A stretch of DNA of 64,000 bases from Streptomyces sp. NBC_00690 (GTDB lineage Bacteria; Actinomycetota; Actinomycetes; Streptomycetales; Streptomycetaceae), in NCBI RefSeq assembly GCF_036226685.1, contig NZ_CP109009.1:8397501-8461500 (forward strand), in the 5' to 3' direction. The notes beneath the pieces are model-generated. The model ran no database searches. It was not told the DNA's origin and saw only the letters and a list, made by a program, of their open reading frames with translations. Shown here one piece after another: positions 2 through 62,942 of this stretch. Both the position numbers and the translations under genes were made by a program. The stretch's first letter is position 1. The number at the start of each line of letters is the position of its first letter.

Positions 2-3000
2 GCCCAGTCGATGCCGACAACGGCCGATGTCGGGTTGTCCCTGGCGGCCGGCCGAGCCGCACTGGAACACCGCGCCGCCCTCGTGGGCACCGACCCCGAA
101 GATCTGCTACGAGCACTTGCCGCCCTGGCCGCCGATGAGCGTACGGAGGGAGCGGCGCAGGTCGTCGTCGGCAGCGTCCAGGACACTGCTGCACCTGCGT
201 TTGTGTTTTCGGGGCAGGGGAGTCAGTGGTGGGGTATGGGGCGTGGGTTGTATGAGTTGTTCCCGGTGTTTGCGGATGTGTTTGACACTGTGTGTGTCGG
301 GTTGGATGGGTTGTTGGGGTGTTCGTTGCGGGAGGTGTTGTTTGAGGGTGATGGGTCAGGGTTGGCTGGTACGGGGTTGACTCAGCCTGCGTTGTTTGTG
401 GTGGAGGTGGCGTTGTGTGGGTTGTTGGGGTCGTGGGGTGTGGTTCCTGCTGTGGTGGCGGGTCACTCGGTGGGTGAGTTCGCTGCCGCGTATGTGGCGG
501 GTGTGGTGTCGTTGGAGGATGCGTGCCGGTTGGTGGCGGCTCGTGGCCGGTTGATGGAAGACCTTCCGCCCGGTGGGGTGATGGTCGCGGTCGAAGCCTC
601 CGAAGCCGACGTCCTCCCACTCCTGGCCGGTCTGGAGGACCGGGTCGGGATTGCGGCGGTCAATAGCCCCACCTCGATCGTGCTCTCCGGCGCGGAGGAT
701 GCGGTCACCGCGGTCGTGGAACAGTTGGGGGATCGTCGTTCGAAGGCGCTGACCGTCTCCCATGCTTTCCATTCACCGTTGATGGATCCGATGCTGGATG
801 CGTTCCGTACGGTCGCGGAGAGTGTCACCTTCCATGAGCCGACCGTGCCGATCGTGTCCACGGTCACCGGCCGCCCGATCACCGCGGGGGAGATGTCGAA
901 CCCGAACTATTGGGTCGAGCACATCCGCCAGCCGGTCCGTTATGCGGATGCGGTGCAGTCGCTGGCTGAGCAGGGTGTGAATGTGTTCCTTGAGGTCGGC
1001 CCTGGCGGAGTCCTGACCGGGTTGACGCAAACCAACCTCGACCATGCAACAGCCATCCCGACCCTCCGCCCCAACACTGCCGAAGACCTCTCCCTCACCA
1101 CCGCACTGGCTCACCTCCACGTCCACGGCACTGTCATCGACTGGCCCGCCTTCTACACCGGCCGTGGCGCCCAACTCGTCGACCTCCCCACCTACCCCTT
1201 CCAACACCAGCACTACTGGCTACGGGTCCCGCCCCAGTTCGACACCGAGGCCATCGGTGTCACGGACACCGATCATCCGATGCTGGGGGCGACCGTCATG
1301 CTCCCCGACGGCGGTATGGTCCTCACCGGCAGACTGTCCTTGGCCACCCATCCTTGGCTCGCCGATCACGCCTTCGCCGGGGTGGTTCTCGTACCCGGAA
1401 CGGCCTTCGTAGAGCTGGCCCTGCGCGCTGGCCGTGAGGCCGGTTGCGACCTGCTCGAAGAAATCACCTTGGAAGCCCCGCTCGTTCTGCCAGAACACGG
1501 AGGAGCCCAGCTCCGTCTGGCTGTGGGAGCCGCGGATGAGGCCGGCCGCCGAACTCTGACCCTGCACTCGCGGTCTGACGCCGACCCCACCAACACGGTG
1601 TGGACCAGACACACCAGTGGCTCCCTGGCCCTCGACCAACAGCAGCACACCGCGGCCGATTTGACCGTATGGCCACCCCGAGGAGCCGAAGAGGTCGACA
1701 CCCAGAACCTCTACGACCAACTTGACACGATCGGCTTCGGATACGGCCCGGTCTTCCGAGGGCTGAAGGCCGCGTGGCGGCAGGGAAACACCCTGTTCGC
1801 GGAGGCAGCCCTCCCCGAAGACGCAGCTACGGAAGCCTCCGCATACGGACTCCATCCGGCCCTGCTGGATGCTGCCCTCCACGCCTCATGGCTCGGTCTG
1901 CTCTCCGGGTCCGAAACGGGGCAGGGACTGCTCCCCTTCTCCTGGGGCGAAGTGCGGCAGTCGGCAGTCGGCGCCGACACCGTACGGATCGAACTCACCC
2001 CGGTGGGAACGGACACCATGTCCGTCCTGATCGCTGACGGGTCCGGACAACCCATCGCATCGATCGGCAGTCTCGTCCTACGCCCTGTGACGGCCGAACA
2101 ACTGAAGCCCACCGCATCAATCGAGCAGGATGCGCTGTTCCGCCTGGACTGGGTCCAGGGTGAACCGGGCACCCCCCATGCGTCCACCCGGCTCATCAAT
2201 CTCGCCGATCTCAACCCCGCTGACGCAGTACCGGAAACCGACTTCGTCATCGCCAGGATCGCAACGGCTACCGACGAATCCTCGGAGCTGGCATCAACTG
2301 CCCAGACCATTCGGGCCACCACTCACCGAACCCTCCGGCTCCTTCAGGAATGGTTGACGGACACGCGCTTCGACTCGGCGCGACTCGTCCTGGTCACCCA
2401 TCGCGCGGTCGCCGTCTCTGCCGAGGAGCGCTCGACACTCGATCCTGCCCAGGCCGCGGTCTGGGGGCTGGTGCGCGCGGCTCAGTCGGAGAACCCCGCT
2501 CGCTTCATCCTCGTGGACACCGACGACGATGACCTGTCGTCCCTCCACCCGGCGCTAGCCATGGAGGAGCCGCAGATCGCCATGCGCTCCGGCCGCATCC
2601 TTCTGCCCCGTCTCACCAGGGCGACCCATAGTGAGGCCGAGGGCACGGACAGCACGTTCCCGGCTGAGGGCACCACTCTCATCACCGGAGCGACCGGTAC
2701 GTTGGGCCGCCTCCTCGCCCGTCATCTGGTGACGACGCATGGGGTGCGACACCTGGTACTGGCGAGCCGTCGAGGCCCGGACGCCGTGGGCTCCGCGGAG
2801 TTCACCGAGGAGCTCACAGCGCTGGGAGCCGAGGCCATCACCGTGGCCTGTGACATCGCCGACCGTACGGAACTGGGCGCCCTGCTCGATGCCATCCCAG
2901 CCGAGCACCCGTTGACCGCCGTGGTGCACGTCGCGGGAGTGACGGACGACGGCACCATCGGCGCACTCACTTCCGATCGACTCGACAGTGTGTTCCGCCC

Positions 3001-3760: not shown

Positions 3761-6700
3761 GAGATCCTGGGCGACCGATCGGCACCGGCCCCTTCGGGGA
3801 GTCCTGTCCCCAACCTTCCCGAGTCGACCTCCGCGGTCGGGGATGAGCTGATGGCGATTGTGGGGATGAGTTGCCGGTATCCGGGGGGTGTGCGGTCGCC
3901 GGAGGACTTGTGGCGGTTGGTGAGTGAGGGTGGCGATGCCGTGGGTGGGTTCCCGGGTGATCGTGGGTGGGATCTGGAGGCTTTGTACCATCCTGACCCT
4001 GATCATGCTGGGACGAGCTACACCCGAGAAGGCGGCTTCCTCCATGACGCCGCCCAGTTCGATCCCGACTTCTTCGAAATCTCGCCGCGTGAGGCGCTGG
4101 CGATGGATCCGCAGCAGCGGTTGCTGCTGGAGACGTCCTGGGAGGCGTTCGAACGGGCGGGAATCGATCCGTCGTCGGTACGTGGTTCCCGTACGGGTGT
4201 TTTCGCCGGCGTGATGTACCACGACTACGGCTCTCGACTCTCCACCGCACCTGAAGGGCTTGAGGGCTATCTAGTCAATGGCAGCGCGGGAAGCATCGCC
4301 TCCGGTCGTGTTGCCTACACGTTTGGTCTTGAGGGGCCTGCGGTGACGGTGGATACGGCGTGTTCTTCGTCGTTGGTGGCGTTGCATTTGGCGGCGCAGT
4401 CGTTGCGGCAGGGTGAGTGTGAGATGGCGTTGGTGGGTGGTGTCACCGTGATGGCGACGCCGAACACGTTTGTGGAGTTCAGTCGGCAGCGTGGGTTGGC
4501 TGTTGATGGTCGGTGCAAGGCGTTCTCGGCGGCTGCGGATGGTACGGGTTGGGCTGAGGGTGTGGGGATGCTGTTGGTGGAGCGGTTGTCGGATGCTCGT
4601 CGGCTGGGGCATCGGGTGTTGGCTGTGGTGCGGGGTTCTGCGGTGAATCAGGATGGTGCGTCGAATGGTCTTACTGCGCCGAATGGTCCTGCGCAGCAGC
4701 GGGTGATTCGGCAGGCGTTGGCGAATGCCGGTCTGGGTTCTGCTGATGTGGATGTGGTGGAGGCGCACGGTACGGGTACGTCGCTGGGCGACCCGATCGA
4801 GGCGCAGGCGCTACTGGCGACCTATGGTCAGGACCGCCCCGCGGATCGTCCTCTCCTTCTCGGCTCACTGAAGTCGAACATTGGTCATACGCAGGCGGCT
4901 GCGGGTGTGGCGGGTGTGATCAAGATGGTGATGGCGATGCGGCATGGTGTCGTGCCGCGTACGTTGCATGTGGATGAGCCGTCACCGCATATCGACTGGT
5001 CGGCGGGGGCCGTCGAGCTGATAACCGAGCCGGTGGAATGGGCAGTCGAGGGGCGTCCTCGTCGGGCGGGGGTGTCCTCCTTCGGAGTGAGCGGCACCAA
5101 CGCCCACGTCGTCATCGAACAAGCCCCAGAGGCCGAACCAGAGCCCGAATCTGATTCCACAAAGGTGCCTGCCCAGGGCACCGCCACTGCTTGGCTCCTA
5201 TCAGCTGAGACTGAGCAGGCACTTCGTGCACAAGCACAGCGCCTGCTGGCGCACATGGCTGAGCATCAAGATGCCCGACTGGTCGATGTGGGCCTCTCTC
5301 TTGCGACATCAAGGGCAGCACTGGGCCACCGGTCCGTGGCAATCGGAGCTGGCCACGATGAGTTGATGGAAGGCATCGAGGCCATCGCGGCGGGGCGAAC
5401 CAACCCTCAAGCTGTGCAACGCACGGACCCCTCGAAGGGACTCATCGGCGGGGCGGAAAAGCCCGCATTTGTGTTTTCGGGGCAGGGTAGTCAGTGGTGG
5501 GGTATGGGGCGTGGGTTGTATGAGTTGTTCCCGGTGTTTGCGGATGTGTTTGACACTGTGTGTGTCGGGTTGGATGGGTTGTTGGGGTGTTCGTTGCGGG
5601 AGGTGTTGTTTGAGGGGGATGGGTCGGGGTTGGCTGGTACGGGGTTGACGCAGCCTGCGTTGTTTGTGGTGGAGGTGGCGTTGTGTGGGTTGTTGGGGTC
5701 GTGGGGTGTGGTTCCTGCTGTGGTGGCGGGTCATTCGGTGGGTGAGTTCGCTGCGGCGTATGTGGCGGGTGTGGTGTCGTTGGAGGATGCGTGCCGGTTG
5801 GTGGTGGCTCGTGGCCGGTTGATGGAGGACCTTCCGTCGGGTGGGGTGATGGTCGCGGTCGAAGCCTCTGAAGCCGACGTCCTCCCGCTCCTGGCCGGTC
5901 TGGAGGATCAGGTCGGGATCGCGGCGGTCAATAGCCCCACCTCGATCGTGCTCTCCGGCACGGAGGATGCGGTCACCGCGGTCGTAGAACAGCTGGGGGA
6001 CCGGCGCTCGAAGGCACTGACCGTCTCCCATGCCTTCCATTCACCGTTGATGGATCCGATGCTGGACGCCTTCCGTACGGTCGCGGAGAGCGTCACCTTC
6101 CATGAGCCGACCGTTCCGATCGTCTCCACCGTCACCGGCCGCCCGATCACCACCGGCGAGATGTCAAACCCCGAGTACTGGGTCCAGCACATCCGCCAAC
6201 CCGTCCGCTACGCGGATGCGGTCCAGGCCCTGGCTGAGCAGGGGGTGAGTGTCTTCCTTGAGGTCGGCCCTGGCGGAGTCCTGACCGGGCTGACGCAAAC
6301 CAACCTCGACCATGCAACCGCCATCCCGACCCTCCGCCCCAACACCGCGGAAGACCTCTCCCTCACCACGGCACTCGCGCACCTCCACGTCCATGGCACT
6401 GTCATCGACTGGCCCGCCTTCTACACCGGCCGCGGCGCCCAGCTCATCGACCTCCCCACCTACCCCTTCCAACGCGACCGCTACTGGCTGGATGTTCCGG
6501 CTCCCCGCGGTGGTATCGCTGCCGCAGGGCTGACCGCGACCCATCACGAGCTCCTCGGCGCCATGACCGTAATGCCCGATGGCGGAGGATCCCTGTTCTC
6601 GGGCCGCCTCTCCCTCACTACGCATCCGTGGCTAGCTGACCACTCCGTATCCGGAGTGTGCCTGCTGCCCGGCACAGCCTTCCTGGAGATGTGCATCCAA

Positions 6701-9700
6701 GCAGGCGACGAGCTCGGCTGCGGTCGTGTGGATGAGCTCACCCTCGCCGCACCGCTTGTGCTTCCCGACACCGGAGCGGTCCAGCTCCGTCTGATCGTCG
6801 GCATCTCGGCCGACCAGAGCGCCCGGCGTACGGTCAAGGTCTACTCCCGACCCGAAGGCTCGACCGATGCCGAGCCAGAGAGCCCGTGGATCTGCCACGC
6901 CACAGGCTTCCTCACCCCCGACACCGATCGCCACTACGCCATGACCGGCCGCGGCACCGATGGTTCAGCGGAGGAATGGCCTCCCATCGGTGCGACTGTC
7001 GTGGATCTCGACGGCAGCTACCAGCAGCTCGCCGCGTCCGGTTTCGTATACGGACCGGTCTTCCAGGGACTGCGGCAGCTCTGGCGGCGAGGCGAAGAGC
7101 TCTTTGCCGAGGTCGCCTTGCCACAAGGTGCCTCCGTCGACGGTTTCGCCCTTCACCCTGCCCTGCTCGATGCAACGCTGCACGCCCTGGGGGCAGCCGA
7201 CTTCCTGACGGCGGGCCATGAAGGACGGCTTCCGTTCGCCTGGAACGGGGTCAGTGTGTACGCCACGGGAGCCGAAGCCGTAAGAGTCAGGCTGCCGCAT
7301 GCCGTTGAAGGCTCCGATTCAATCTCGCTGTGGATCACCGACGGTGTGGGATCGGTGGTTGCATCCGTCGACTCCCTCACACTGCGCACGGTGGATCCAG
7401 AGCAACTGAAGGCGGCTTCTGATCCTCACCGCGACTCACTGTTCCGCATCGAATGGGAGCAACACGAACCATCGACCACGGATACCCCCGTACCCGTGGC
7501 AGTGCTCGACACCCTGTCGGAACTCGGCTCCGCCCAGACCTCGGCGGCCGAGATGGTGGCGATTCGCGTTGCTGGGGCCGGGTCGGAATCCGACTTCCTC
7601 TGCTCAGCCCCCGTACAGAGCGTGTTGCCCCTCCTCCAAGAGTGGTTGGCCGAGGAGAGGTTTGCGGCCTCCCGACTGCTGGTGATGACGCGACGCGCCG
7701 TAGCGGTTTCCTCCTCCCACAAGGACGGTACGGCAGCCGACGTCGACATGGGGCAGGCTGCAGTCTGGGGACTGGTGCGTTCTGCTCAGTCGGAGAACCC
7801 CGGCCGCTTCACCCTGGTCGACTGCGACACCGACGACACAACACTCCTGTCGGAAGCGGCGGCGACGGGTGAACCGCAGATCGCGATCCGTGAAGGCCGC
7901 CTGCTCGTGCCACGTCTCGCACGCATCGACGCGGGATCACGCACCGGTTCGGGGACTCCTTCCAAGGCAACCACGTTCTCCTCCACGGGTACGGTTCTGA
8001 TCACCGGAGCGTCCGGCACACTCGGCAGGCTCATTGCCCGCCATCTGGTGACGACGCATGGGGTGCGGCACCTGGTACTGGCGAGCCGTCGAGGCCCGGA
8101 CGCCGAAGGGGCCCAGCACTTCATCGCCGAGTTGGAAGGGCTAGGTGCCCATGCAGCTGCGGTCAGCTGCGATGTCGCTGACCGGGCCGCGCTGGTCGAA
8201 CTGCTGGCCACCATCCCCGCCGATCGTCCCCTGACCGGAATTGTCCATGCCGCCGGTGTCGTGGACGACGGCACCCTGCCGACCCTTACCCCAGAGAGCA
8301 TCGACCGGGTCTTCGGACCCAAGGCGATAGCCGCGATGAACCTTCATGAGCTGACTCTGGGCCTGGAGCTCTCCGCCTTCGTTCTCTTCTCGTCCGCGGC
8401 CGGCACGCTCGGAAGCGCCGGCCAGGGAAACTACGCCGCCGCGAACTGTGTCCTCGACGCTCTGGCAGAATCGCGACGAGCCGCGGGTATGCCCGCGCTG
8501 TCGATGGCTTGGGGGCTGTGGGCCGAATCCAGCACGCTCACCGAAGACCTGGCGGACGCTGACCGCCACAGGATCAGCCGCTCAGGACTGATCGCCTTCC
8601 AGGCCGAAAAGGGCTTGGCCCTCTTCGACGAGGCAAGCCGCTCCGCACTGCCCGTTGTGATCCCGGTCCAGCTCGACATGGGGACGCTCCAGACACAGGC
8701 ACAAAATGGAACGCTGTCCCCGGTACTTCGTCGGCTGGTGCGGACTCCTGCGCGCCGCATGCTTGACGCGACTTCCGAGTCGGTGGGTGCGCTCTCCCTG
8801 GTCCAGCGGCTCAACGCCCTGGCACCGGCCGAGCAGTATCACCTCGTCCTGGACCTGGTACGGACACAGATTGCGGCGGTGCTCGGCCACCAGACCGATA
8901 CCGGGATCGTGGCGGACCGCCAATTCAAGGAGCTCGGGTTCGACTCGCTGACCGCTGTGGAGCTGCGCAACACGCTGAACACCGCTACGGGACTCCGACT
9001 CAACGCGACCCTCGTGTTCGACCACCCGACACCCGAGGCGCTGTCCCGCTTCCTTCTGGCCGAACTCGTCACATCGAATGCCTCTGGCGCATTGGTGAAC
9101 ACCCCGGTATCCCTGCCGGTCGGGGATGAGCTGATGGCGATTGTGGGGATGAGTTGCCGGTATCCGGGGGGTGTGCGGTCGCCGGAGGACTTGTGGCGGT
9201 TGGTGAGTGAGGGTGGCGATGCCGTGGGTGGGTTCCCGGGTGATCGTGGGTGGGATCTGGAGGCTTTGTACCATCCTGACCCTGATCATGCTGGGACGAG
9301 CTACACCCGAGAAGGCGGCTTCCTCTACGGAGCGGGTGAATTTGACCCGTCGTTCTTCGGAATCTCGCCGCGTGAGGCGCTGGCGATGGATCCGCAGCAG
9401 CGGTTGCTGCTGGAGACGTCGTGGGAGGCGTTCGAACGGGCGGGCATCGATCCGTCGTCGGTACGTGGTTCCCGTACGGGCGTCTTCGCCGGCGTGATGT
9501 ACCACGACTACGCCTCCCAGCTCGGGCAGGTGATACCGGACGGAGTCGAAGGACATCTGGGCATGGGCACGTCCGGCAGCGTGGCTTCCGGGCGGTTGTC
9601 GTACACGTTTGGTCTTGAGGGGCCTGCGGTGACGGTGGATACGGCGTGTTCTTCGTCGTTGGTGGCGTTGCATTTGGCGGCGCAGTCGTTGCGGCAGGGT

Positions 9701-12700
9701 GAGTGTGAGATGGCGTTGGTGGGTGGTGTCACCGTGATGGCGACGCCGAACACGTTTGTGGAGTTCAGTCGGCAGCGTGGGTTGGCTGTTGATGGTCGGT
9801 GCAAGGCGTTCTCGGCGGCTGCGGATGGTACGGGTTGGGCTGAGGGTGTGGGGATGCTGTTGGTGGAGCGGTTGTCGGATGCTCGTCGGCTGGGGCATCG
9901 GGTGTTGGCTGTGGTGCGGGGTTCTGCGGTGAATCAGGATGGTGCGTCGAATGGTCTTACTGCGCCGAATGGTCCTGCGCAGCAGCGGGTGATCCGCCAG
10001 GCGCTGGCGAACGCGCGGTTGAGCTCGGCTGATGTGGATGTGGTGGAGGCGCACGGTACGGGTACGTCGCTGGGCGACCCGATCGAGGCGCAGGCGCTAC
10101 TGGCGACCTATGGTCAGGACCGCCCCGCGGATCGTCCTCTCCTTCTCGGCTCACTGAAGTCGAACATTGGTCATACGCAGGCTGCTGCGGGTGTGGCGGG
10201 TGTGATCAAGATGGTGATGGCGATGCGGCATGGTGTGGTGCCGCGTACGTTGCATGTGGATGAGCCGTCTCCGCATATCGACTGGTCGGCGGGGGCCGTC
10301 GAGCTGGCTACCGAGCCGCTGGAATGGGCAGCAGTTGAGGGGCGTCCTCGTCGGGCGGGGGTTTCCTCCTTCGGAGTGAGCGGCACCAACGCCCACGTCG
10401 TCATCGAACAAGCCCCAGAGGCTGAGCGACCGGTGAACGCCCCTGAGTCGGGACCGTTGTCAGACGTGGTCACATGGGTTCTCTCCGCGAAGGAAGAGGA
10501 CAGCCTGAGGACACAGGCGCAACGCCTGGCTGCGCATCTAGACGCCCACCCCCAGGTGCAGTCAGCTGACGTCGGGCTGACTCTGGCAACATCGCGAGCG
10601 GTGCTGGAACAGCGCGCGGCCATCGTGGGCACCGATCGTGGTGCCTTGTTGGCCGGACTGATGGCCATCGCCTCAGGTCAGGTGACTGACGGAGTGATCC
10701 GGGGCGACTCTGAGCGCTCACTGAACCGGCTGGCGTTTGTGTTTTCGGGGCAGGGGAGTCAGTGGTGGGGTATGGGGCGTGGGTTGTATGAGTTGTTCCC
10801 GGTGTTTGCGGATGTGTTTGACACTGTGTGTGTCGGGTTGGATGGGTTGTTGGGGTGTTCGTTGCGGGAGGTGTTGTTTGAGGGTGATGGGTCGAGGTTG
10901 GCTGGTACGGGGTTGACTCAGCCTGCGTTGTTTGTGGTCGAGGTGGCGTTGTGTGGGTTGTTGGGGTCGTGGGGTGTGGTTCCTGCTGTGGTGGCGGGTC
11001 ATTCGGTGGGTGAGTTTGCTGCCGCGTATGTGGCGGGTGTGGTGTCACTGGAGGATGCGTGCCGGTTGGTGGTGGCTCGTGGCCGGTTGATGGAGGACCT
11101 TCCGGCTGGTGGGGTGATGGTCGCGGTCGAAGCCTCCGAAGCCGACGTCCTCCCGCTCCTGGCCGGTCTGGAGGACCGGGTCGGGATTGCGGCGGTCAAT
11201 AGCCCCACCTCGATCGTGCTCTCCGGCGCGGAGGATGCGGTCACCGCAGTCGTGGAACAGTTGGGGGACCGTCGTTCGAAGGCGCTGACCGTCTCCCATG
11301 CTTTCCATTCACCGTTGATGGATCCGATGCTGGACGCGTTCCGCACGGTCGCGGAGAGCGTCACCTTCCATGAGCCGACTCTGCCGATCGTGTCCACCGT
11401 CACCGGACGCCCGATCACCACAGGCGAGATGTCGAACCCCGAGTACTGGGTCGAGCACATCCGCCAGCCGGTCCGCTATGCCGATGCGGTCCAGGCACTG
11501 GCCGAGCAGGGCGTGAGCGTGTTCCTTGAGGTCGGACCTGGCGGAGTCCTGACCGGGCTGACCCAAACCAACCTCGACCACGCAACAGCCATCCCGACCC
11601 TCCGCCCGAACACCGCCGAAGACCTCTCCGTAGCCACCGCCCTCGCCCACCTCCACGTCCACGGCACCCCCATCGACTGGCCCGCGTTCTACACCGGCCG
11701 TGGTGCCCAACTCATCGACCTCCCCACCTACCCCTTCCAACGCAACCGCTACTGGCTGGAGTCAGGCCCAGCCGTGAGCGATGTGGCCTCGTTCGGGCTC
11801 GCCTCAGCCGGCCACCCCCTGCTCGGTGCGACTGCAGTGCTCGCCAACGGTGATGGAGCGCTGCTGACAGGTCGGTTGTCCCTCGACACCCATCCTTGGC
11901 TCGCCGAACACATGGTCAATGGCGTTGTATTGCTGCCCGGAACCGCCCTGCTGGAACTGGCCGTGCAGGCCGCCTCCGAGGTGGGATTCGACCGAGTGGA
12001 TGAGCTCGTCCTAGGCGCTCCGCTGCTTCTACCCGATCGAGGGTCCTCGCAATTCCAAGTCGTTGTCGGTGGGCCGGACGAGGCAGGCCGTCGTGCCGTG
12101 AGCATCCACTCGCGCACGGAGAGGGACAGCGGCGCCGAATGGCTTCGCCACGCGACGGGCTACCTGTCCGACGCCAAGCTCCAAGCCCCAGATCCGAGCG
12201 ATCAGGCCGTTCAGGAACCGGACGGTCCGTCATTCTTGAACGGATCCAACGACTGGCCAACCCATGACTCCGAGTCGATGAACATCGACGGTGTGTATGA
12301 GCGGTTGTCCGATCTTGGGTTTGGCTATGGTCCGTTGTTCCAGGGGTTGCGGGGGGTTTGGCGTCGGGGTTCCGATGTGTTTGCTGAGGTGGCGTTGCCT
12401 GAGGGGACGGTGGTTGATGGGTTTGGTGTGCATCCGGCGCTGTTGGACTCGGCTTTGCATGCCCTCGGTGTGTCTGGGGTGTTGGAGGACACCGGGCAGG
12501 GGCGCATTCCCTTCTCGTGGAGCGGGGTACAGCTCACCGCGACCGGTGCCACCCGACTACGAGTCAAAATAACCTCAACTGGAGCAGACAAGGTCGCTCT
12601 GACCGCCATCGAGCCGTCGGGGCAGACGGTGATCACCGTGGACTCTCTTGTGCTGAGGCCGGTCTCGCCCGAGCAACTGGATCAGGCGCGGGGGCAACAG

Positions 12701-14758: not shown

Positions 14759-14845
14759 ATCAGCAGGCTGCCGGACACCCGTGCCAGCCTCAACCATTTG
14801 CTGACCTCCGGGCCCAAAAGGCTCCTCTGTAAAAGGTGATCCCAG

Positions 14846-17800
14846 GTGACTGAACTTCAGGCAAAGAGTAACGAAGAGAAGCTGCGCTACTTCCTCAAGC
14901 GGGTTTCCACAGACCTCCACGAAGCTCGCGAGCGGCTCCAGGAACTCGATGCTGCCCAGCACGAGCCGATCGCCATCGTCGCGATGGGCTGCCGGTATCC
15001 CGGCGGGGTCACCTCACCTGAAGACCTCTGGCGCTTGGTTTCGGACGGCCATGACGCGATCGGCGGCTTTCCGATCGATCGAGGCTGGGACCTGGAAGCA
15101 CTCTTCGACTCGGACCCGGACAATCGTGGAACCAGCCATGTTCGGGAGGGCGGGTTCCTCGGAGAGATCGACCGATTTGATGCGGGCCTCTTTGAGATAT
15201 CGCCCCGCGAAGCACAGACCATGGACCCCCAGCAGCGCCTGCTCTTGGAGACCACCTGGGAGACCATTGAGCGAGCAGGAATCGACCACACATCCCTCAG
15301 GGGAAGCCGCACCGGAGTATTCGCCGGAGTGATGTATCACGATCACTCGTCGGTGCTGCAACAAGCGGTGGAGGACGTCGAGGGTTACATCGGAACCGGC
15401 AGCGCTGCCAGTGTCATTTCGGGCCGGATCGCCTATTCCTTCGGCCTTGAGGGGCCTGCGGTGACGGTGGATACGGCGTGTTCTTCGTCGTTGGTGGCGT
15501 TACATCTCGCAGTTCAGGCACTGCGGCAGGGCGAATGTGATCTGGCCCTGGCCGGCGGAGTCACCGTCATGTCCACCCCAACCGCTTTTGTGGACTTCAG
15601 TCGTCAGCGTGGGTTGGCTATTGATGGTCGGTGCAAGGCGTTTGCTGCGGCTGCGGATGGTACGGGCTGGGCTGAGGGCGTTGGAATGCTCCTGGTGGAG
15701 CGGTTGTCGGATGCTCGTCGGCTGGGCCATCCGGTACTCGCGGTGGTGCGGGGTTCTGCGGTGAATCAGGATGGTGCGTCGAACGGTCTTACCGCGCCGA
15801 ATGGTCCTGCCCAGCAGCGGGTGATCCGCCAGGCGTTGGCGAACGCCCGTCTGAGTTCCGCTGATGTGGACGTGGTGGAGGCGCACGGTACGGGTACGTC
15901 GCTGGGCGACCCGATTGAGGCGCAGGCACTACTGGCGACCTATGGTCAGGACCGCCCAGCGGACCGTCCACTGCTGCTTGGTTCACTGAAGTCGAACATC
16001 GGTCACACCCAGGCGGCTGCGGGCGTGGGTGGTGTGATCAAGATGGTGATGGCCATGCGGCACGGTGTCGTGCCGCGTACCTTGCATGTGGATGAGCCGT
16101 CTCCGCATATCGACTGGTCGGCAGGAGCCGTCGAGCTGGCTACCGAGCCGATGGAATGGGCCGAGGACCCAGCCAGGCCCCGCCGAGCAGCGATCTCGTC
16201 CTTCGGCTTCAGCGGCACCAACGCCCATGCAATCATCGAGGAAGTACTCAGTCCAGAACCTCAGGTGCGGACCGAAGAGGAAGGGCAGCGGGAGTGGCGC
16301 CCGACCCCCATCTTGATTTCGGGGAAGACAGACACCGCAGTCCGTGACCAAGCGGCCAAGCTGCTGTTGCACATGGATCACGCCGGGTCCGCTTCATTGG
16401 TGGACCTGGGGTTCTCGTCGGCAACATCACGTGCCGCGTTGGAGCACCGCGCCGCGATCGTAGCTACGGATCGACAAGGACTTCGGGTAGCACTGGAAGT
16501 TCTGGCGCGAGGAACTCAGACGGACGCAGGCACCTCATTGGTGGCAAAGGCCGTGGCGGCTCCGCAGCAAACGATGGCGTTTGTGTTTTCGGGGCAGGGG
16601 AGTCAGTGGTGGGGTATGGGGCGTGGGTTGTATGAGTCGTTCCCGGTGTTTGCGGATGTGTTTGACACTGTGTGTGTCGGGTTGGATGGGTTGTTGGGGT
16701 GTTCGTTGCGGGAGGTGTTGTTTGAGGGTGATGGGTCGGCGTTGGCTGGTACGGGGTTGACTCAGCCTGCGTTGTTTGTGGTGGAGGTGGCGTTGTGTGA
16801 GTTGTTGGGGTCGTGGGGTGTGGTTCCTGCTGTGGTGGCGGGTCATTCGGTGGGTGAGTTCGCTGCCGCGTATGTGGCGGGTGTGGTGTCGTTGGAGGAT
16901 GCGTGCCGGTTGGTGGTGGCTCGCGGCCGGTTGATGGAGGACCTTCCGCCGGGTGGGGTGATGGTCGCGGTCGAAGCCTCCGAGGCCGACGTCCTCCCGC
17001 TCCTGGCCGGCCTGGAGGACCAGGTCGGGATTGCGGCGGTCAATAGCCCCACCTCGATCGTGCTCTCCGGCACCCACGACGCGGTCACCGCGGTCGTAGA
17101 ACAGCTAGGTGACCGGCGCTCGAAGGCACTGACCGTCTCCCACGCTTTCCACTCACCGTTGATGGATCCGATGCTGGAAGCGTTCCGTACGGTCGCGGAG
17201 AGCGTCACCTTCCATGAGCCGACCGTTCCGATCGTGTCCACGGTCACCGGCCGCCCGATCACGGCGGGGGAGATGTCGAACCCGAACTATTGGGTCGAGC
17301 ACATCCGCCAACCGGTCCGCTACGCGGATGCGGTCCAGTCGCTCGCCGAGCAGGGCGTGAGTGTCTTCCTTGAGGTCGGCCCTGGCGGAGTCCTGACCGG
17401 GCTGACGCAAACCAATCTCGACCATGCCACCGCCATCCCGACCCTCCGCCCCAACACCGCCGAAGACCTCTCCCTCACCACCGCCCTCGCGCACCTCCAC
17501 GTCCACGGCACTGTCATCGACTGGCCCGCCTTCTACACCGGCCGAGATGCCCAACTCATCGACCTCCCCACCTACCCCTTCCAACGCGACCGCTACTGGC
17601 TCGACGTCCGGTCTGACGCTGGTGATCTTGCTGAAGCGGGGCTTAGGGACGCTGAGCACCCGTTGCTTGCCGCAGTCGTTGCCATGGCCGAGGGCGATGG
17701 AGTGTTGCTCACCGGCCGTCTTTCGATGGCCGCGCACTCCTGGCTCGCTGAACACGTTGTTCTGGGAACAACGATCCTTCCCGGTACCGCATTGGTCGAG

Positions 17801-20800
17801 TTGGCGATCAGAGCGGGTGATCAGATTGGATGCGGGCGACTCGAAGAGCTGACTCTTCAGACGCCGCTCGTGCTTCCGGAGACAGGCAGCCTTCGACTAC
17901 AGGTTGCGGTGGGCGTACCCGACGAGCATGGTCATCGACCGATACGACTGTACTCACAGCGAGATGATGCCTTGGCGACCGAAGCCTGGGCTTGCCACGC
18001 TGTCGGAGCGGTGTCGCACACACAGGGAAGCAGCGATTCTGCGCTCCAGGAACCAGTTGTTGATCTAGCCGAGTGGCCCCCAATAGGTGCTGAGCCCGTT
18101 GATGTGAGTGCCCTGTACGACCAACTGGCCGAGGTCGGCCTGGAATACGGGCCGGTGTTTCGTGGCGTGCATGCCGGATGGCGCCGCAACGGGGAGTTCT
18201 TTGCCGAGATTTCCCTACCCGAGCAGACCTCAGTGGCTGGTTACGGTATCCATCCGGCCCTCTTCGACTCCGCCCTCCACTCGGTGGGTTTGGTGGGACC
18301 CGAGGAGCGGACCGATGGACCACTCGTGCCCTTCGCATGGAGCGGTGTCCGGCTTCATGCCACGGGCGCCACTTCCCTTCGCCTGCGTATCGCGCCTGCA
18401 AGCACAGGCGGGCGGGGCGCGCTATCACTCCTCGCTGCGGACGGCGAGGGAACAGTGGTGTTCTCAGTCGAATCCCTGGATCTCCGACCGGTCGATGCAG
18501 ACCAGCTCTCCCGGGCGGGGGACACAAGCGGCGACGGGCTGTTCCGGGTGGACTGGGTACCCCTACGGGACACGGCTTCCCTTGCGGTCAACGACGTTCG
18601 GATTCCTCTCCGTGACTCCCTGACCGGACTGGCTGGCGACTTGGATCCGGTTCCGGACGTGGTGGCGGTGAGGGTGCCGATGCTGTCGGGCTGCGGATCC
18701 CAGGCACCCACTGCAACCGTTCAAGCAACCCTGCTCCTCATACAAGAATGGCTTTCGCAACCTGAGTTCGAGCTATCGCGGCTGGTACTTGTGACGCAGG
18801 GCGCCGTGACGACGGGATTGCGCCCGACCCATGCCGCGGGCGATGCTGCTGGCCACAGCGCGACTGCGGAACCGTATGGTGAAGCGAACGCCGCGCAAGC
18901 GGCTGTTTGGGGGCTGGTCCGGTCCGCCCAGTTGGAACACCCCGGTCGATTCGGCCTGGTCGATCTCGTCGATCTGGACGATGGTGAAGACACCACTGAG
19001 CTGACGATCGCGATCGTCACGGATGAGCCGCAGATGGCACTGCGTGGGTCGCAGGTGCTTGTGCCACGCCTGGTGCAAGTGGAGCAGACGCTGCCGACCT
19101 CCAACCGTCAGCTCTCTTCCACCGAAGGAACGGTCCTCATCACCGGGGCTTCCGGCACGTTGGGGCGGATCGTTGCACGCCATCTGGTGGCCGAGGTCGG
19201 GGTACGAAGCCTCGTGCTGGCCAGCCGTAGCGGTCCAGCCGCTGAAGGCGCGGCAGAGTTCTCGGCTGAGCTGCGCGAACTGGGCGCCATCATCGACACG
19301 GTCGCCTGCGACGTCTCGGACCGTGAGGCACTCGTGCGGCTGCTCGACCGAGTACCGGGGGAGTACCCCTTGACCGGCGTCATCCATGCCGCTGGTGTCA
19401 CCGACGACGGTGTGATCTCTGCACTGACCCCCGAACGTGTTGCCACTGTGTTCAAGCCGAAGGTGGATGCCGCCTTCCATCTCCATGAACTGACGAAGGA
19501 CCTGGACCTCACCGCGTTCGTACTGTTCTCCTCCGCGGCCGGCACGTTCGGCAATGCAGGTCAAGGCAACTACGCGGCTGCCAACGCCGCCCTGGACGCA
19601 TTGGCCACCACCCGCCGTACCACCGGCCTGCCGGCGCTTTCCCTCGCATGGGGCCTGTGGGCACACACCAGTACACTCTCCGCCGAGTTGGCTGAGGCCG
19701 ACCACTACCGGATGAGTCGCTCAGGGCTTCTCCCCTTGGAGACCTCGGAGGGTCTCGCACTTCTGGACCGAGCACTCGGTGTGGACGAGCCAGCGCTTGT
19801 CCCCGCCCGCTGGGACTTCCCCGTACTGCGTGACCAGGCCCGATCCGGGTCACTCCCCGTACTTCTACGGAGCATGGTCCCCGTGTCCACACAACGGGTG
19901 CGGGCCGCAGCCACGCCGTCGGGCGGTGCGAGCACCACCCTCGCCAAGGAACTGGCCGAGCTGACCGAGAGTCGCCAACACGACGCCCTTGTCGAGCTCG
20001 TCATCACACATGCCGCTGCCGTCCTCGGGCACGGCCGGCCTGAATCCGTACAGGCGAACCAGGCGTTTCGCGAGCTCGGCTTTGACTCGCTCACAGCCGT
20101 CGAGCTGCGAAATCGTCTTGCTTCAGCGACCGGTGTGCGGCTGCCGGCCGGACTCGTCTTCGACTACCCGACGCCGCAGGCGCTTGCCAAGCATCTACGC
20201 CAGGAACTACTGGGTGCCGGGGCCGCCGCATCGACGCCTGTTGCGGTGCCCGCATCGGACGACCCCATCGCCATCGTCGCCATGAGCTGCCGCTACCCCG
20301 GCGGAGTGGAAACCCCCGAGGACCTTTGGGCGCTGATCGAACTCGGTCGGGACGCCATCTCGGACTTCCCGTCCGATCGTGGTTGGGATCTTGCCCTATT
20401 GTCCGAAGGAGGGTCCTCCGGCTCCAGCGATACAAGCGTGGGAGGGTTCCTCTACAAGGCGGGCGAGTTCGACGCGGGCTTCTTCGGGATTTCGCCGCGT
20501 GAGGCGCTGGCGATGGATCCGCAGCAGCGGTTGCTGCTGGAGACGTCGTGGGAGGCGTTCGAACGGGCCGGAATCGACCCCACAACTCTGCAGGGGAGTC
20601 GCACCGGTGTGTTCACCGGTGCGATGTACCACGACTACGCATCCTCCCTCCAAACGGTTCCCGAAGGCGTGGAAGGATTCCTCGGCACGGGGAACTCGGC
20701 GTCGGTGGTCTCGGGGCGGTTGTCGTACACGTTTGGTCTTGAGGGGCCTGCGGTGACGGTGGATACGGCGTGTTCTTCGTCGTTGGTGGCGTTGCATTTG

Positions 20801-25885: not shown

Positions 25886-25912
25886 TCGACAAGCACGAAT
25901 TCCCCTGGCGTT

Positions 25913-25917
25913 GAGGA
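25913..25917 (+). promoter_or_regulatory. Ribosome binding site that decides the PKS C start
   Basis: GAGGA lies 11 bases before the ATG at 25929. A TTG six codons upstream (25911) overlaps this site, so the ATG is preferred. The ATG also gives a docking-domain N-terminus like those of PKS B and PKS E. Confidence 0.7.
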
Positions 25918-25928
25918 ACAGAATTCAG

Positions 25929-37900: not shown

Positions 37901-40900
37901 ACTGACGGCCGGTCTTGATGGGCTGGGCAGAGGAGTGCACTCCGCCGAGACAGTCAGCGGTCTTGCTTCGTCTGATGCCAGGCTGGCGTTTGTGTTTTCG
38001 GGGCAGGGGAGTCAGTGGTGGGGTATGGGGCGTGGTTTGTATGAGTTGTTTCCGGTGTTTGCGGATGTGTTTGACACTGTGTGTGTCGGGTTGGATGGGT
38101 TGTTGGGGTGTTCGTTGCGGGAGGTGTTGTTTGAGGGTGATGGGTCGGGGTTGGCTGGTACGGGGTTGACTCAGCCTGCGTTGTTTGTGGTGGAGGTGGC
38201 GTTGTGTGGGTTGTTGGGGTCGTGGGGTGTGGTTCCTGCTGTGGTGGCGGGTCACTCGGTGGGTGAGTTCGCTGCCGCGTATGTGGCGGGTGTGGTGTCG
38301 TTGGAGGATGCGTGCCGGCTGGTGGTGGCTCGCGGCCGGTTGATGGAGGATCTTCCGGCTGGTGGGGTGATGGTCGCGGTCGAAGCATGCGAAGCCGACG
38401 TCCTCCCGCTCCTCGCTGGCCTGGAGGATCAGGTCGGGATTGCGGCGGTCAATAGCCCCACCTCGATCGTGCTCTCCGGCACCCACGACGCGGTCACCGC
38501 GGTCGTGGAACAGCTAGGTGACCGGCGTTCGAAGGCGCTGACCGTCTCCCATGCCTTCCATTCACCGTTGATGGATCCGATGCTGGACGCGTTCCGTACG
38601 GTCGCGGAGAGCGTCACGTTCCATGAGCCGACCGTGCCGATTGTGTCCACGGTCACCGGCCGCCCGATCAGCACCGGCGAGATGTCGAACCCCGAGTACT
38701 GGGTTCAGCACATCCGCCAACCCGTCCGCTACGCCGATGCGGTCCAGGCACTGGCCGAGCAGGGGGTGAATGTCTTCCTTGAAGTCGGACCTGGCGGAGT
38801 CCTCACCGGGTTGACCCAAACCAACCTCGACCATGCAACCGCCGTCCCGACCCTACGAGCAGATGCCCGGAGCGAAGACGCTGCGCTGCTCGCAGCGGCG
38901 GCCCGTCTCCATGTGCGCGGGGTGGACCTCCACTGGTCGGCAGTCCTGGGACCGGACCGGATGCGGCGTATCGACCTGCCCACGTACTCCTTCCAGCGAG
39001 CCCACTACTGGCTCGACGCAGGCAACACCAACGCCGTTGGTTCCCTCAACCCCGAAGATCCGGCGGAGTCGGAGTTCTGGGACACCGTTGAGAACGGACG
39101 GCCCGATGCCGTGCCCGAATGGCTTGGGCTTCAGCAAGGCGCCTCGGTCGACTCGGTCTTCGACGCACTCGCGACCTGGCGGCGCGAGAACCGTACCCGC
39201 ACCGCTCTGGACGGCTTGCGCTACCACACGGTGTGGGAGCCGAAGACCGATCTCTCATCCGCAGCCCTCTCCGGTACCTGGGTGGTCGTGACACCCGAAG
39301 AGGAAGAAGCCGGACCTTACATCCGCATGCTGCGGAGCAGGGGCGCGCAACCTCTGTTGGTGACGGTCGCCGACCCTGGAGTCGACAGGGAATCACTGGC
39401 CGTGCTGCTCGGCAAAGCCATGGCCGGCCACGACGGATCTCTCAACAGCCGCCAAGAGCACGACATCACCGGTGTGTTGTCGCTGCTGGCAATCGATGAC
39501 CGGGTGCACCCGGACCAGCCAGGTCTACCGTCCAGTTTGACGTCCACCGTCGCACTGATCCAGGCACTGACCGACATGACGATGAACGCTCCCCTGTGGT
39601 GTGTCACACGGGCCGCGGTCTCCGTCAGTTCCTCCGAGCCGCCACTACGGCCGCTGCAGGGGCTCCTATGGGGCCTGGGGCGGGCGGCTGCGTTGGAAAG
39701 CCCGGAGCGTTGGGGCGGGCTGGTCGATCTGCCTGCCACACGGGACGACCGCTCACTCAGCCGGCTCGCGGATGTCCTGGCCGCAGCCGATGCCGAGGAC
39801 CAGCTCGCCGTACGCGGCGCGACCGTGCTGGTACGCAGACTGACCCGCTCACCCCGGACCAGCGGCCCCGTCACCCACAACGGTTGGAAGCCCCGCGGAA
39901 CCGTCCTGATCACCGGGGGTACGGGTGCACTCGGTGGGCACGCCGCCAGATGGCTGGCCCGTGCCGGAGCCGACCATCTGGTTCTCACCAGCCGTCGTGG
40001 GGCACAGGCCGAAGGCGCAGCGGAACTAGCAGCAGAACTGGCGGACATGGGCACCAGGGTCACCATCGCGGCTTGTGATGTGGCTGACAAGGCGGCGGTC
40101 GCCCGACTCCTCGCCTCCCTCGCAGACGACGCGGCCCCGCTCACCGGAGTCGTACACGCGGCAGGACTTCCCCAGCTGAACTCGATCACCGACACCAGCC
40201 TGGAGGAACTGGCCGCAGTGGTGACCGCGAAGGTCGCGGGGGCGACCCACCTGGATGAGCTGCTGGGAGATCGAGAACTCGACGCCTTCATCCTCTTCTC
40301 GTCCGTGTCCGGAGTGTGGGGCAGCGGCAAGCAGGCCGCGTACTCGGCGAGCAATGCCTTCCTCGACGCGCTGGCCCACGACCGTCGTGCCAGGGGGCTC
40401 GCCGCGACGGCCGTCGCCTGGGGCCCATGGGCCGAGAGCGGAATGGCGGCCGACGGTGGCGCCGAGGAATACCTTCGACTCAGCGGACTGCCCTCGCTCT
40501 CGCCTGACCTCGCCGTATCGGCCCTACAACTCGCCATGGACCGTGACGAGACCGCGGTGGTGGTGGCCGATGTGGACTGGGAGCGGTTTGCTCCTTCCTT
40601 CACCATCGGCCGCCCGAGCCCCCTCCTCGCAGACCTTCCGGAAGCTCGCGCGGCGCTGGAAGGCGACAGCGCCAACAGCGGAGGGAGCACCGTCACCCAG
40701 CCCGGGCGAGACGCGGTCGAACTGGTGCAGAAGCTATCCGACCTCTCCGCTCAGGACCGGCACGACCTTCTGTTGGAGATCGTGCAGCGAGAGGCCGCCG
40801 CTGTGCTGGGCTACTCCCACACCGACGCCATCGAACCCGAGCGAGCATTTCGAGAGCTCGGCTTCGACTCGCTCACGGCAGTCGAGCTCCGCAACCGACT

Positions 40901-41258: not shown

Positions 41259-41273
41259 CAGTGGCCCGAGTAC

Positions 41274-41277
41274 GGAG
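41274..41277 (+). promoter_or_regulatory. Ribosome binding site that decides the PKS D start
   Basis: GGAG six bases before the ATG at 41284. A longer in-frame reading from 41155 would overlap PKS C by 104 bp and adds residues with no docking character, so the start is placed at 41284. Confidence 0.75.
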
Positions 41278-41283
41278 CGGAAG

Positions 41284-52632
<11,349 letters not shown>

Positions 52633-52715
52633 GCACCCGAGCAGGCACGGTGCACACCACGCGGCCCGCACCACCGCACCACGTACGACTCAGACATCTT
52701 GGCGGGTGACCAGAC

Positions 52716-55700
52716 ATGCAGAACGAGCAGAAGCTACTCGACTACCTGAAGCGTGTGACGGCAGATCTCAAGCAGACCCGACGACGACTGCACGAGGCCG
52801 AGACCAAGGGCCAGGAACCCATCGCCATTGTCGCGATGAGCTGCCGATACCCTGGCCAGGCCAACAGCCCCGAGGAGTTGTGGCAGTTGGTCGCGAGCGG
52901 CACCGACGCCGTGACCAACTTTCCCACCGACCGCGGATGGGACCTGGAAGCCCTCTACGACCCCGATCCGACCTCGTCGGGCACCTGCTACACCCGCGAG
53001 GGTGGATTCCTGCACGATGCAGCCGAGTTCGACCCTGGATTCTTCGGGATGTCCCCCAGGGAAGCGCTCGCCACGGATCCTCAACAGCGGCTGCTCCTCG
53101 AAACCGTCTGGGAGACCTTCGAACGGGCCGGTGTGGACCCGTCGTCGGTGAAGGGGACCCGCACCGGTGTGTTCGTCGGCCTCGCCTACCAGGGATACGC
53201 CGGTAGCGGCGCATCCCTGGAGGAACTGGAGGGGTTCCTCCTCACCGGTACGGCACCCAGTGTGGCGTCCGGTCGTGTCTCGTACGCCTTCGGTCTGGAA
53301 GGCCCATCGCTCACCGTTGACACCGCCTGCTCCTCGTCACTGGTCGCCCTTCACCTGGCCGTGCAGGCGCTGCGCCAAGGCGAGTGCTCCATGGCGCTCG
53401 CCGGTGGGGCTGCGATCATGGCGAGCACCGGGATGTTCACCGAGTTCAGCCGTCAGCAGGGCCTTGCCGTCGACGGTCGCTGCAAATCGTTCGCGGCGGC
53501 TGCGGATGGTACGGGTTGGGGTGAGGGTGTGGGGATGTTGCTGGTGGAGCGGCTGTCCGACGCCCACCGCCTCGGGCACCCGGTCCTCGCTGTGGTGCGG
53601 GGTTCTGCGGTGAACCAGGACGGTGCGTCCAACGGTCTCACCGCGCCCAGCGGGCCCGCACAGCAGCGGGTCATCGAACAGGCCCTAGCTTCAGCCGGTC
53701 TGTCGATGGCCGATGTGGATGTGGTGGAGGCCCATGGCACGGGTACGTCGTTGGGCGATCCGATCGAGGCGCAGGCGCTACTGGCGACCTATGGTCAGGA
53801 CCGCCCGGCGGACCGTCCGCTGCTCCTTGGTTCACTGAAGTCGAACATCGGTCATACGCAGGCCGCTGCGGGTGTGGGTGGTGTGATCAAGATGGTGGAG
53901 GCGATGCGGCATGGTGTGGTGCCGCGTACCTTGCATGTGGATGAGCCGTCACCACACGTCGATTGGACGTCCGGTGCGGTGCGGTTGGTGACCGAGCCCG
54001 TCGATTGGCCCAAGACCGGGCGCCCCCGCCGTGCTGCTGTCTCCTCATTCGGAGTGAGCGGTACCAATGCTCACACCATCATTGAGCAAGCACCTCTGGG
54101 CCTCGAAGGCGAGAAGGCAGGGGACTCGACGGACATATCGTCCCTCTCTGCTTCCCTCCCCATCGCCTGGACCCTCTCGGCGCGTTCGGCACCAGCTTTG
54201 CGGGAGCAGGCGCAACGTCTGCTGACAAGCCTGGCCGGAAGTGGTGCTTCGTCGCGTCCGGTGGACATTGCGCACTCCCTCGCCACGGCACGAGCAGTCC
54301 TGGAACACCGAGCGGTCGTGGTCGGTCACGATCAGCCGGGACTCCTCGCCGGACTCGAAGCACTGGCCGCGGGCACCTCCGCCACGCAGGTCATCACCGG
54401 CCTTACTGAGCGCGAGAGCAGGACCGCATTTGTGTTTTCGGGGCAGGGGAGTCAGTGGTGGGGTATGGGGCGTGGGTTGTATGAGTTGTTTCCGGTGTTT
54501 GCGGATGTGTTTGACACTGTGTGTGTCGGGTTGGATGGGTTGTTGGGGTGTTCGTTGCGGGAGGTGTTGTTTGAGGGTGATGGGTCGGGGTTGGCTGGTA
54601 CGGGGTTGACTCAGCCTGCGTTGTTTGTGGTGGAGGTGGCGTTGTGTGGGTTGTTGGGGTCGTGGGGTGTGGTTCCTGCTGTGGTGGCGGGTCATTCGGT
54701 GGGTGAGTTCGCTGCGGCGTATGTGGCGGGTGTGGTGTCGTTGGAGGATGCGTGCCGGTTGGTGGTGGCTCGTGGCCGGTTGATGGAGGACCTTCCGTCC
54801 GGTGGGGTGATGGTCGCGGTCGAAGCCTCCGAGGCCGACGTCCTCCCGCTCCTGGCCGGTTTGGAGGACCGGGTGGGGATTGCGGCGGTCAATAGCCCCA
54901 CCTCGATCGTGCTCTCCGGCACCCACGACGCGGTCACCGCGGTCGTAGAACAGCTGGGGGACCGGCGTTCGAAGGCACTGACCGTCTCCCACGCTTTCCA
55001 TTCACCGTTGATGGATCCGATGCTGGACGCGTTCCGCACGGTCGCGGAGAGCGTCACCTTCCATGAGCCGACCGTGCCGATCGTGTCCACGGTCACCGGA
55101 CGCCCGATCACCACCGGCGAGATGTCGAACCCCGAGTACTGGGTTCAGCACATCCGCCAACCGGTCCGCTACGCCGATGCGGTCCAGGCACTGGCCGAGC
55201 AGGGTGTGAGTGTCTTCCTTGAAGTCGGCCCTGGCGGAGTCCTGACCGGGTTGACGCAAACCAATCTCGACCATGCAACAGCCATCCCGACCCTCCGCCC
55301 CAACACCGCCGAAGACCTCTCCCTCACCGCCGCACTGGCTCACCTCCATGTCCACGGCACTGTCATCGACTGGTCCGCCTTCTACACCGGCCGTGATGCC
55401 CAGCTCATCGACCTCCCCACCTACCCCTTCCAGCACCAGCACTACTGGCTGACTGCCAGGAGCCCTCAGTCGGCTCGGTCCACGGATCGAGACCTTGAGT
55501 ACACGGTGAACTGGAAGCGGTTACCCGATCCCCTCGAAGCCGAAGCCGAAGCCGAAGCCGGTGTTGATGTCGAGGGGCACTGGCTCCTCGTCTCAGCCCC
55601 CGACGGCCCGAGCGCCGTCGAGCACCTCGTGGACGGCATACGGGATGCCCTCCTCGCGGGCGGTGCACGCGTCACACAGCTGACCGTCGACGACACTTCG

Positions 55701-62929: not shown

Positions 62930-62942
62930 CTCGATCAGCTTG

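Follow-up and report, generated by a model that had tools for sequence, protein, structure and literature searches.

Why do ten acyltransferase (AT) domains of one polyketide synthase (PKS) share almost the same kilobase of DNA when much of the sequence around them has diverged? The question is raised by a stretch of 64,000 nucleotides from Streptomyces sp. NBC_00690 (NCBI RefSeq assembly GCF_036226685.1, contig NZ_CP109009.1, positions 8,397,501 to 8,461,500 of the forward strand), which was analysed as a whole and is called the window here. It contains modules 1-12 of a synthase whose loading AT and module 0 lie upstream. The ATs of modules 1-5 and 7-11 carry the motifs GHSVG and HAFH, and those of modules 0, 6 and 12 carry GHSQG; by the usual motif rules, we take the former to be malonyl and the latter methylmalonyl ATs. 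The repeated unit, or cassette, is a malonyl AT with its post-AT linker. We conclude with high confidence that the cassettes are paralogous AT segments of the same class, kept alike within one PKS by frequent gene conversion of short tracts, and that their 5' part is now a GRINS, a type of skewed repeat defined below. The cassettes and two control ATs are as follows.

197..1222, + strand: malonyl AT cassette of module 1, GRINS
5465..6490, + strand: malonyl AT cassette of module 2, GRINS
10733..11758, + strand: malonyl AT cassette of module 3, GRINS
16577..17602, + strand: malonyl AT cassette of module 4, GRINS
21872..22897, + strand: malonyl AT cassette of module 5, GRINS
33318..34343, + strand: malonyl AT cassette of module 7, GRINS
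37986..39014, + strand: malonyl AT of module 8, one codon longer than the cassettes and with a distinct right end; homogenised as far as about 38857, GRINS from 37951 to 38850
42988..44013, + strand: malonyl AT cassette of module 9, GRINS
47689..48714, + strand: malonyl AT cassette of module 10, GRINS
54426..55451, + strand: malonyl AT cassette of module 11, GRINS
27891..28934, + strand: methylmalonyl-type AT (GHSQG/YASH) of module 6, internal control, not homogenised
58962..60017, + strand: methylmalonyl-type AT (GHSQG) of module 12, internal control, not homogenised

A first-pass annotation of the window had described a 1026-bp recurrence in modules 1-5, 7, 9, 10 and 11 and a changed right end in module 8, and both descriptions were borne out. 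Nine cassettes are exactly 1026 bp long and align without gaps at pairwise identities of 92.6-96.8%. The module 8 AT (1029 bp; ungapped identity to the other nine 83.6-86.0%) leaves the common sequence at about nt 872, and over its last 50 residues its median nucleotide identity to the other window malonyl ATs is 0.54, as opposed to 0.93 in the body. Among the ATs of five clusters compared, the best match to this tail reached only 0.66 (module 4 of the relative G614, introduced below). The same annotation had called the cassettes near-identical. This is apt for their overall identity, but the nine hold 154 variable sites, 84 of them informative, and are thus alike rather than identical, with divergence spread unevenly along their length. 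The longest identical tracts between cassette pairs measure 224 bp. In the rest of the genome, where 40 of 156 first-look candidates were scored, the next-best matches were 70% identical over 340 nt and lay in a second PKS; a megablast search of the plasmid collection found no match to the cassette.

Kilobase repeats are hard for short reads, and copies could have been collapsed or duplicated by the assembly. However, any two of the nine full copies differ by 3-7% and all reading frames are intact, the genome is assembled in 2 contigs, and the module order agrees with that in three other assemblies. An artefact is therefore extremely improbable.

Those three assemblies carry related PKSs, designated G172, G038 and G614. 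The first two were picked by a DNA search of 392 genomes of the genus and the third by a search of 394 genomes of the family, with one or two candidates scored per genome. All have the module order and AT-class order of the window synthase, in G614 into module 11; the G614 sequence stops before the end of module 11 and module 12, so the comparison of the four synthases includes 11 methylmalonyl ATs and 39 ACPs. The nearest neighbour was found in the same synthase for 37 of 40 malonyl ATs, and at the same module position for every methylmalonyl AT (11/11), every ACP (39/39), 37 of 40 KRs, 20 of 24 DHs and 32 of 40 N-terminal KS halves. The C-terminal KS halves were divided, 24 of 40 being closest to a domain of their own synthase and 15 to one at the same position. 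Malonyl ATs are thus closer to their paralogs than to same-position orthologs, the pattern of concerted evolution. In the malonyl AT tree, the window ATs formed one clade (support 1.0), as did those of G614 (0.911) and those of G172 and G038 jointly (0.999). Between G172 and G038, same-position identity outside the cassette was 0.76-0.96 and, along most of the module, clearly exceeded the identity between different positions, whereas inside the cassette the gap was at most 0.06 and the residual positional signal lay mainly toward the 3' end.

Synonymous sites tell the same story in the window synthase, which the divergence table and the identity profile cover together with G172 and G038. Among the ten malonyl modules of the window, the median number of synonymous differences per site was 0.180 (0.083-0.287) for the AT, 0.574 for the KS, 0.658 for the KR and 0.639 for the ACP (45 pairs each), and 0.685 for the DH (15 pairs from six modules). 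Equal divergence in cassettes and flanks, which the first-pass annotation had named as the outcome that would speak against gene conversion, was thus not what this comparison gave. A recent tandem duplication of modules, with ATs that have not yet diverged, would explain why the modules are alike in architecture and length and why the window ATs share a single clade. Yet in these modules the neighbouring domains have differences at 0.57-0.69 of their synonymous sites, as opposed to 0.18 for the AT, and position-specific orthology was found for KRs, ACPs and methylmalonyl ATs. Because three relatives have the same module order with KRs and ACPs that match by position, the modules must be older than the split of these synthases, and we give recent duplication next to no chance.

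Purifying selection or codon bias alone might also keep the ATs alike; the number of nonsynonymous differences per site (pN) among the window malonyl ATs is very low (0.022), and third codon positions in their 5' part are strongly biased. Nevertheless, divergence at fourfold degenerate sites remained low after normalisation for composition, with values of 0.00-0.34 in the first five AT bins and 0.91-1.03 in the linker bins of the window synthase. Moreover, same-position ATs of the window synthase and G172 differ by 0.556 at synonymous sites, which indicates that AT sites are not generally slow and are free to change. We regard this explanation as very improbable.

The profile of mean within-synthase identity (codon alignment from the KS to the post-AT region) has two edges. 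Identity stands at 0.43 in the KS-AT linker, leaps to 0.95-1.00 in the opening AT bins from AFVFSGQG onward, and drops to 0.42 beyond the YW motif that closes LPTYPFQ...YW, which we take to be the conserved part of PAL2. The first-pass annotation had placed the cassette edges at these same motifs; they are real and recur in the profiles of G172 and G038. Between them, synonymous differences start at 0.06 close to the 5' end and reach 0.17-0.32 over the 3' half. Identity is also raised, up to 0.90, in the C-terminal half of the KS, a second zone separated from the AT zone by the unhomogenised linker. The contention that the surroundings are much more divergent therefore applies to the KS-AT linker, DH and KR, but not to this half of the KS, which is homogenised as follows.

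4261..5130, + strand: C-terminal KS half of module 2, GRINS
9541..10410, + strand: C-terminal KS half of module 3, GRINS
15451..16230, + strand: C-terminal KS half of module 4, qualifies as GRINS only with the 0.15 cutoff
20671..21510, + strand: C-terminal KS half of module 5, GRINS
32371..33000, + strand: C-terminal KS half of module 7, qualifies as GRINS only with the 0.15 cutoff
46591..47340, + strand: C-terminal KS half of module 10, qualifies as GRINS only with the 0.15 cutoff
53431..54030, + strand: C-terminal KS half of module 11, identity 0.87, qualifies as GRINS only with the 0.15 cutoff

In G172 and G038, the C-terminal KS half is repeated in all 13 modules, including those with a methylmalonyl AT. 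Homogenisation of the KS is thus not tied to AT class there.

The copied patches appear to be much shorter than the zone in which they fall. Among the nine full cassettes, the share of incompatible site pairs was 0.36 at distances of 6-15 bp, 0.44 at 15-30 bp and 0.59 at 30-60 bp. Permuted data gave values as low in 0 of 1000 cases for 1-30 bp and in 4 of 1000 for 6-30 bp; at 100 bp the window cassettes gave no signal (206/1000). The signal is restricted to distances below about 30 bp. The ATs of G172 and G038 and the KSs of all three synthases had a distance effect at every range tested (0/1000). The KRs of the window synthase, G172 and G038 gave, respectively, 66, 46 and 7 per 1000 at 1-30 bp, 419, 358 and 102 at 6-30 bp, and 782, 535 and 47 at 6-60 bp. 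Linkage in the cassettes decays within about 30-60 bp, indicating that small patches are copied inside a fixed zone rather than whole cassettes.

Repeated gene conversion, as the first-pass annotation had proposed, is thus strongly supported by low synonymous divergence in the cassette and, to a lesser degree, in the C-terminal KS half, by clustering according to synthase across PKSs of the same order, and by linkage decay over tens of base pairs. Its further proposal, that the cassette is a natural AT exchange unit, fared less well. The edges exist, but they coincide with the ends of homology, and a copied patch covers only a small part of the cassette. The cassette does not move as a block, since linkage is gone by 30-60 bp, and no transfer of a different extender specificity was seen: all ten ATs are of the malonyl type, and the methylmalonyl ATs keep their positional history. 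The two classes stay separate and thus give no sign of an exchange of extender specificity.

The following mechanism would account for these patterns. Malonyl ATs of one synthase would be similar enough to pair as homologous DNA and methylmalonyl ATs would not, which presumes a homology barrier between the classes. Comparison of the synthases shows that patches of tens of base pairs or more are copied between modules, homogenising synonymous sites and erasing the history of module position. By the same comparison, copying ends where homology ends, at the KS-AT linker on one side and the YW motif of the post-AT linker on the other, with the C-terminal KS half as a separate second zone. In this synthase, the first third of the AT, the most homogenised part, has drifted to codons rich in G and T, some of them changing the amino acid. 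The skew may itself promote conversion, for example via RNA-DNA hybrids on the G-rich coding strand. G-quadruplexes were considered as another route and set aside; none of the canonical coding-strand motifs in the window falls within a cassette (0/10), and some occur in KS tracts.

GRINS have been defined, in the available sections of the source papers, as regions of about 1 kb (PMC10394414) or at least 500 bp (PMC9899208) that are >90% (or >80%) identical to another part of the same PKS, with a mean absolute GC and TA skew above 0.15 (PMC9899208) or 25% (PMC10394414). We scanned for them by the procedure given in the available text of PMC9899208, with windows compared by blastn in place of global alignment. 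At 0.15, all 18 repeat regions of the window synthase qualified, namely the ten ATs, seven KS tracts in the window and an eighth KS tract upstream of it. The AT cassettes span 900-1080 bp at a mean best-window identity of 0.96-0.97, and the KS tracts 600-870 bp at 0.87-0.98. Mean absolute GC and TA skews of the cassettes were 0.26-0.31 and 0.27-0.34, so that 10 of 10 pass both cutoffs, although the signed GC skew of whole cassettes, +0.10 to +0.23, is below 0.25. All eight KS tracts exceeded 0.15 and three (modules 2, 3 and 5) exceeded 0.25. The skew, which like the KS zone had escaped the first-pass annotation, is concentrated at the 5' end of the cassette. Third codon positions in the first 510 nt are composed of A, C, G and T at 0.02, 0.17, 0.56 and 0.25, compared with 0.10, 0.55, 0.28 and 0.07 in the methylmalonyl ATs, and the cassette beyond 510 nt is without this third-position skew. 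Among the relatives, 4 of 23 repeat regions in G172 and 6 of 23 in G038 pass the skew threshold, all of them ATs.

Composition has also altered the protein. Against a consensus of the three relatives, at sites with 80% agreement on both sides, G or T had replaced A or C at 29 of 116 first and second codon positions of residues 0-170, and the opposite replacement had occurred at 4 of 181 (Fisher p about 1e-9), whereas residues 170-341 had 7 of 122 and 20 of 141 such changes. Directional change from A and C to G and T is thus found in the 5' half only. Protein recoding by biased composition is a reported feature of GRINS, going by the title of the founding paper (Nivina et al. 2021, PNAS).

A foreign malonyl AT that entered one module and swept through all ten would offer a different account of the departure from the relatives, one akin to the recent AT replacement that the first-pass annotation had put forward as an alternative. 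The pN from G172 is indeed much higher in the AT (0.233) than in the KS (0.085) or KR (0.140), and a tree of the N-terminal 130 residues sets the window ATs apart from the related PKSs. But in trees that include 139 malonyl ATs from 67 other loci (three of these ATs from L032, the G614 contig), the window ATs fall within the related clade both at full length (support 0.941 and 0.993) and in the C-terminal part (0.85 and 0.999). In addition, the N-terminal departures are directed toward G and T, and the likeness of outside malonyl ATs to the window N-terminus tracks their own skew (rho 0.47, n=135), as opposed to rho -0.03 for the C-terminus. This effect is small, with a mean identity of 0.611 for 30 skewed ATs and 0.594 for 105 others. 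We read the departures as compositional convergence, although the 5' part may still be foreign. No donor AT above 72% identity appeared among the matches listed (E of 1e-110 or better, the 394 family genomes, two candidates scored per genome). The placement in the full-length tree speaks against replacement as the main process, and we consider a single recent replacement unlikely.

We next consider how skew and homogeneity are related under gene conversion. In the window synthase, composition-normalised fourfold divergence falls with G+T skew along both the AT (rho -0.80, p 0.001, n=13 bins) and the KS (rho -0.76, n=17), although neighbouring bins are not independent. No such correlation was found in G172 (AT -0.32, KS +0.19), and G038 had a weak one in the KS only (-0.49, p 0.046; AT -0.10). 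The relation was then examined across 40 loci and 223 AT pairs at least 78% identical and with enough fourfold sites, L032 being left out (at 70% identity, 51 loci and 282 pairs were covered). Skew in the 5' third of the AT correlated with normalised divergence there (rho -0.71) and with that of the 3' part (-0.45). With one locus per organism, and without this cluster, its relatives and the second PKS, rho was -0.72 (n=30). In 18 skewed loci of those 30, the 5' part was less diverged than the 3' part (0.28 vs 0.48, p 0.008), whereas the difference in the 12 others was not significant (0.59 vs 0.70, p 0.18). This is an association between skew and homogeneity in sequence data, and any promotion of conversion by GRINS would be hypothetical.

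Several observations weigh against conversion of short tracts or against a role of skew in it. Best-window identity of the relatives' ATs is 0.85-0.96 even though few of their repeat regions are skewed, so skew is not required, and in the window the bins of residues 117-192 are barely skewed yet homogeneous. Across loci, how much skew differs within a cassette is unrelated to how much divergence differs (rho -0.09, p 0.59), which speaks against a simple dose effect. The distance effect in the window ATs is absent at 6-60 bp (453 of 1000 permutations as low) and weaker when all ten cassettes are compared over 870 bp (27/1000 at 6-30 bp). Incompatibility in the KRs is overall as high as in the ATs, so much of it reflects recurrent mutation and is not evidence on its own, and the KR control of G038 was not fully clean at 1-30 and 6-60 bp. 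The N-terminal tree described above belongs here as well.

A more specific version holds that conversion is polar, starting in the G/T-skewed 5' third of the AT or in the skewed C-terminal KS half, running 3'-ward for variable lengths and favouring G and T. We put this forward tentatively, as a possibility that is probably incorrect. If true, skew and homogenisation would reinforce each other, and polarity would explain the sharp left edge and the 3'-ward rise in divergence seen here but not in the weakly skewed relatives. It would also explain why, in the two cassettes seen with a clearly altered end (that of module 8 and one of the second PKS), the altered end is the right one. Among the papers listed in literature searches, screened by titles and the beginnings of abstracts, none reported a 5'-to-3' gradient within ATs, and the founding GRINS paper could hold such a report.

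The second modular PKS of this genome (C1:7629518-7687319) has nine GHSQG ATs, four of them strongly skewed. Of its seven repeat regions, six qualify as GRINS. Two are KS tracts, and the other four are these methylmalonyl ATs, which share 98-99% identity and have skews of roughly 0.5-0.6. Over codons 5-200 the four ATs reach 99.5-100% identity, and their first 510 nt have very strong G and T skews (about +0.65 and +0.70); one of them departs in its right part (0.71). They are also the ATs that match the window cassettes at 70% over the first 340 nt, and exchange between the two PKSs was considered and rejected. Over the first 115 codons, the window cassettes are 0.65 identical to them in nucleotides and 0.47 in amino acids, compared with 0.53 and 0.46 to the other methylmalonyl ATs of that PKS. 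Nucleotide identity is thus raised while amino acid identity is not, which we read as parallel recoding.

GRINS, and a proposed link to gene conversion, have been published (available parts of PMC10394414, PMC9899208, PMC11907408 and PMC11915812). Like published GRINS, the window cassettes are repeats of about 1 kb, >90% identical within one cis-AT PKS, whose coding strand has more G than C and more T than A, and they share recoding of the protein and signs of gene conversion. Unlike them, the window cassettes have a skew confined to about the first 400-500 bp, and here all ten malonyl ATs are involved and 0 of 3 methylmalonyl ATs of the extension modules. Concerted evolution of ATs specific to a biosynthetic gene cluster is described, in the available portion of Medema et al. 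2014 (PMC4256081), for the polyenes pimaricin, nystatin and amphotericin and for meridamycin; there, too, ATs branch by cluster while other domains keep their positional history. The window synthase differs in that the C-terminal half of the KS is also homogenised and the N-terminal half mostly not, and in that methylmalonyl ATs in the same proteins provide an internal negative control. Homologous recombination in the rapamycin and tylosin PKSs joined modules of the same extender class inside ATs, with KS and AT as recombination sites (Wlodek et al. 2017, PMC5663706; PMC10661043; available text). Whole modules were lost or gained there, whereas in the window synthase the number of modules is constant and sequence is only copied. 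Gene conversion in PKSs is thus a known phenomenon, of which the window synthase is a well-supported new case; polarity and the association with skew are leads.

The cassette edges can be compared with those of engineered AT swaps (the Yuzawa boundaries, PMC8058987; Englund et al. 2023, PMC10423236; PMC11344766; available sections). Nine of the ten natural zones reach the end of the post-AT linker at LPTYPFQ...YW, which the productive engineered designs in those sections leave native. The departure of the module 8 AT, near the end of the AT or early in the post-AT linker, would lie close to the engineering sites.

The window contains five type I PKS genes, all on the + strand, and the cassettes lie in all five, not in four proteins as first annotated. 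The genes, with coordinates from the list of open reading frames (ORFs), are as follows.

11-14758, + strand: PKS gene 1, with its true start at L001:11047, 8.95 kb upstream of the window
14846-25885, + strand: PKS gene 2
25911-41258, + strand: PKS gene 3
41155-52632, + strand: PKS gene 4
52716-62807, + strand: PKS gene 5, also with a thioesterase match
62940-63719: separate thioesterase gene, downstream of PKS gene 5

As listed, ORF 25911-41258 and the next ORF share positions 41155-41258, and the PKS start codons are provisional. A GMC oxidoreductase, a P450 and two LuxR-type regulators are encoded upstream of the PKS genes; the upstream stretch L001:1987-7577 holds two adjoining large regulators of the AAA-ATPase/LuxR type. 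By its gene content, the cluster looks like a polyene macrolide cluster. Modules 1-6 (window positions 197-31700) consecutively have a DH and a KR, with HxxxGxxxxP motifs, and the sixth AT is of the methylmalonyl type. This layout predicts a methylated hexaene, on condition that every DH acts.

The four synthases of the same order separate gene conversion from duplication, with the methylmalonyl ATs as a built-in control. They distinguish regions that are freely copied, from the AT through the post-AT linker and in the C-terminal half of the KS, from those that keep a module-specific history, namely the N-terminal half of the KS, the KS-AT linker, DH, KR and ACP. This distinction bears on where PKSs are cut for engineering, and the link between skew and homogeneity across 40 loci makes the role of GRINS testable.

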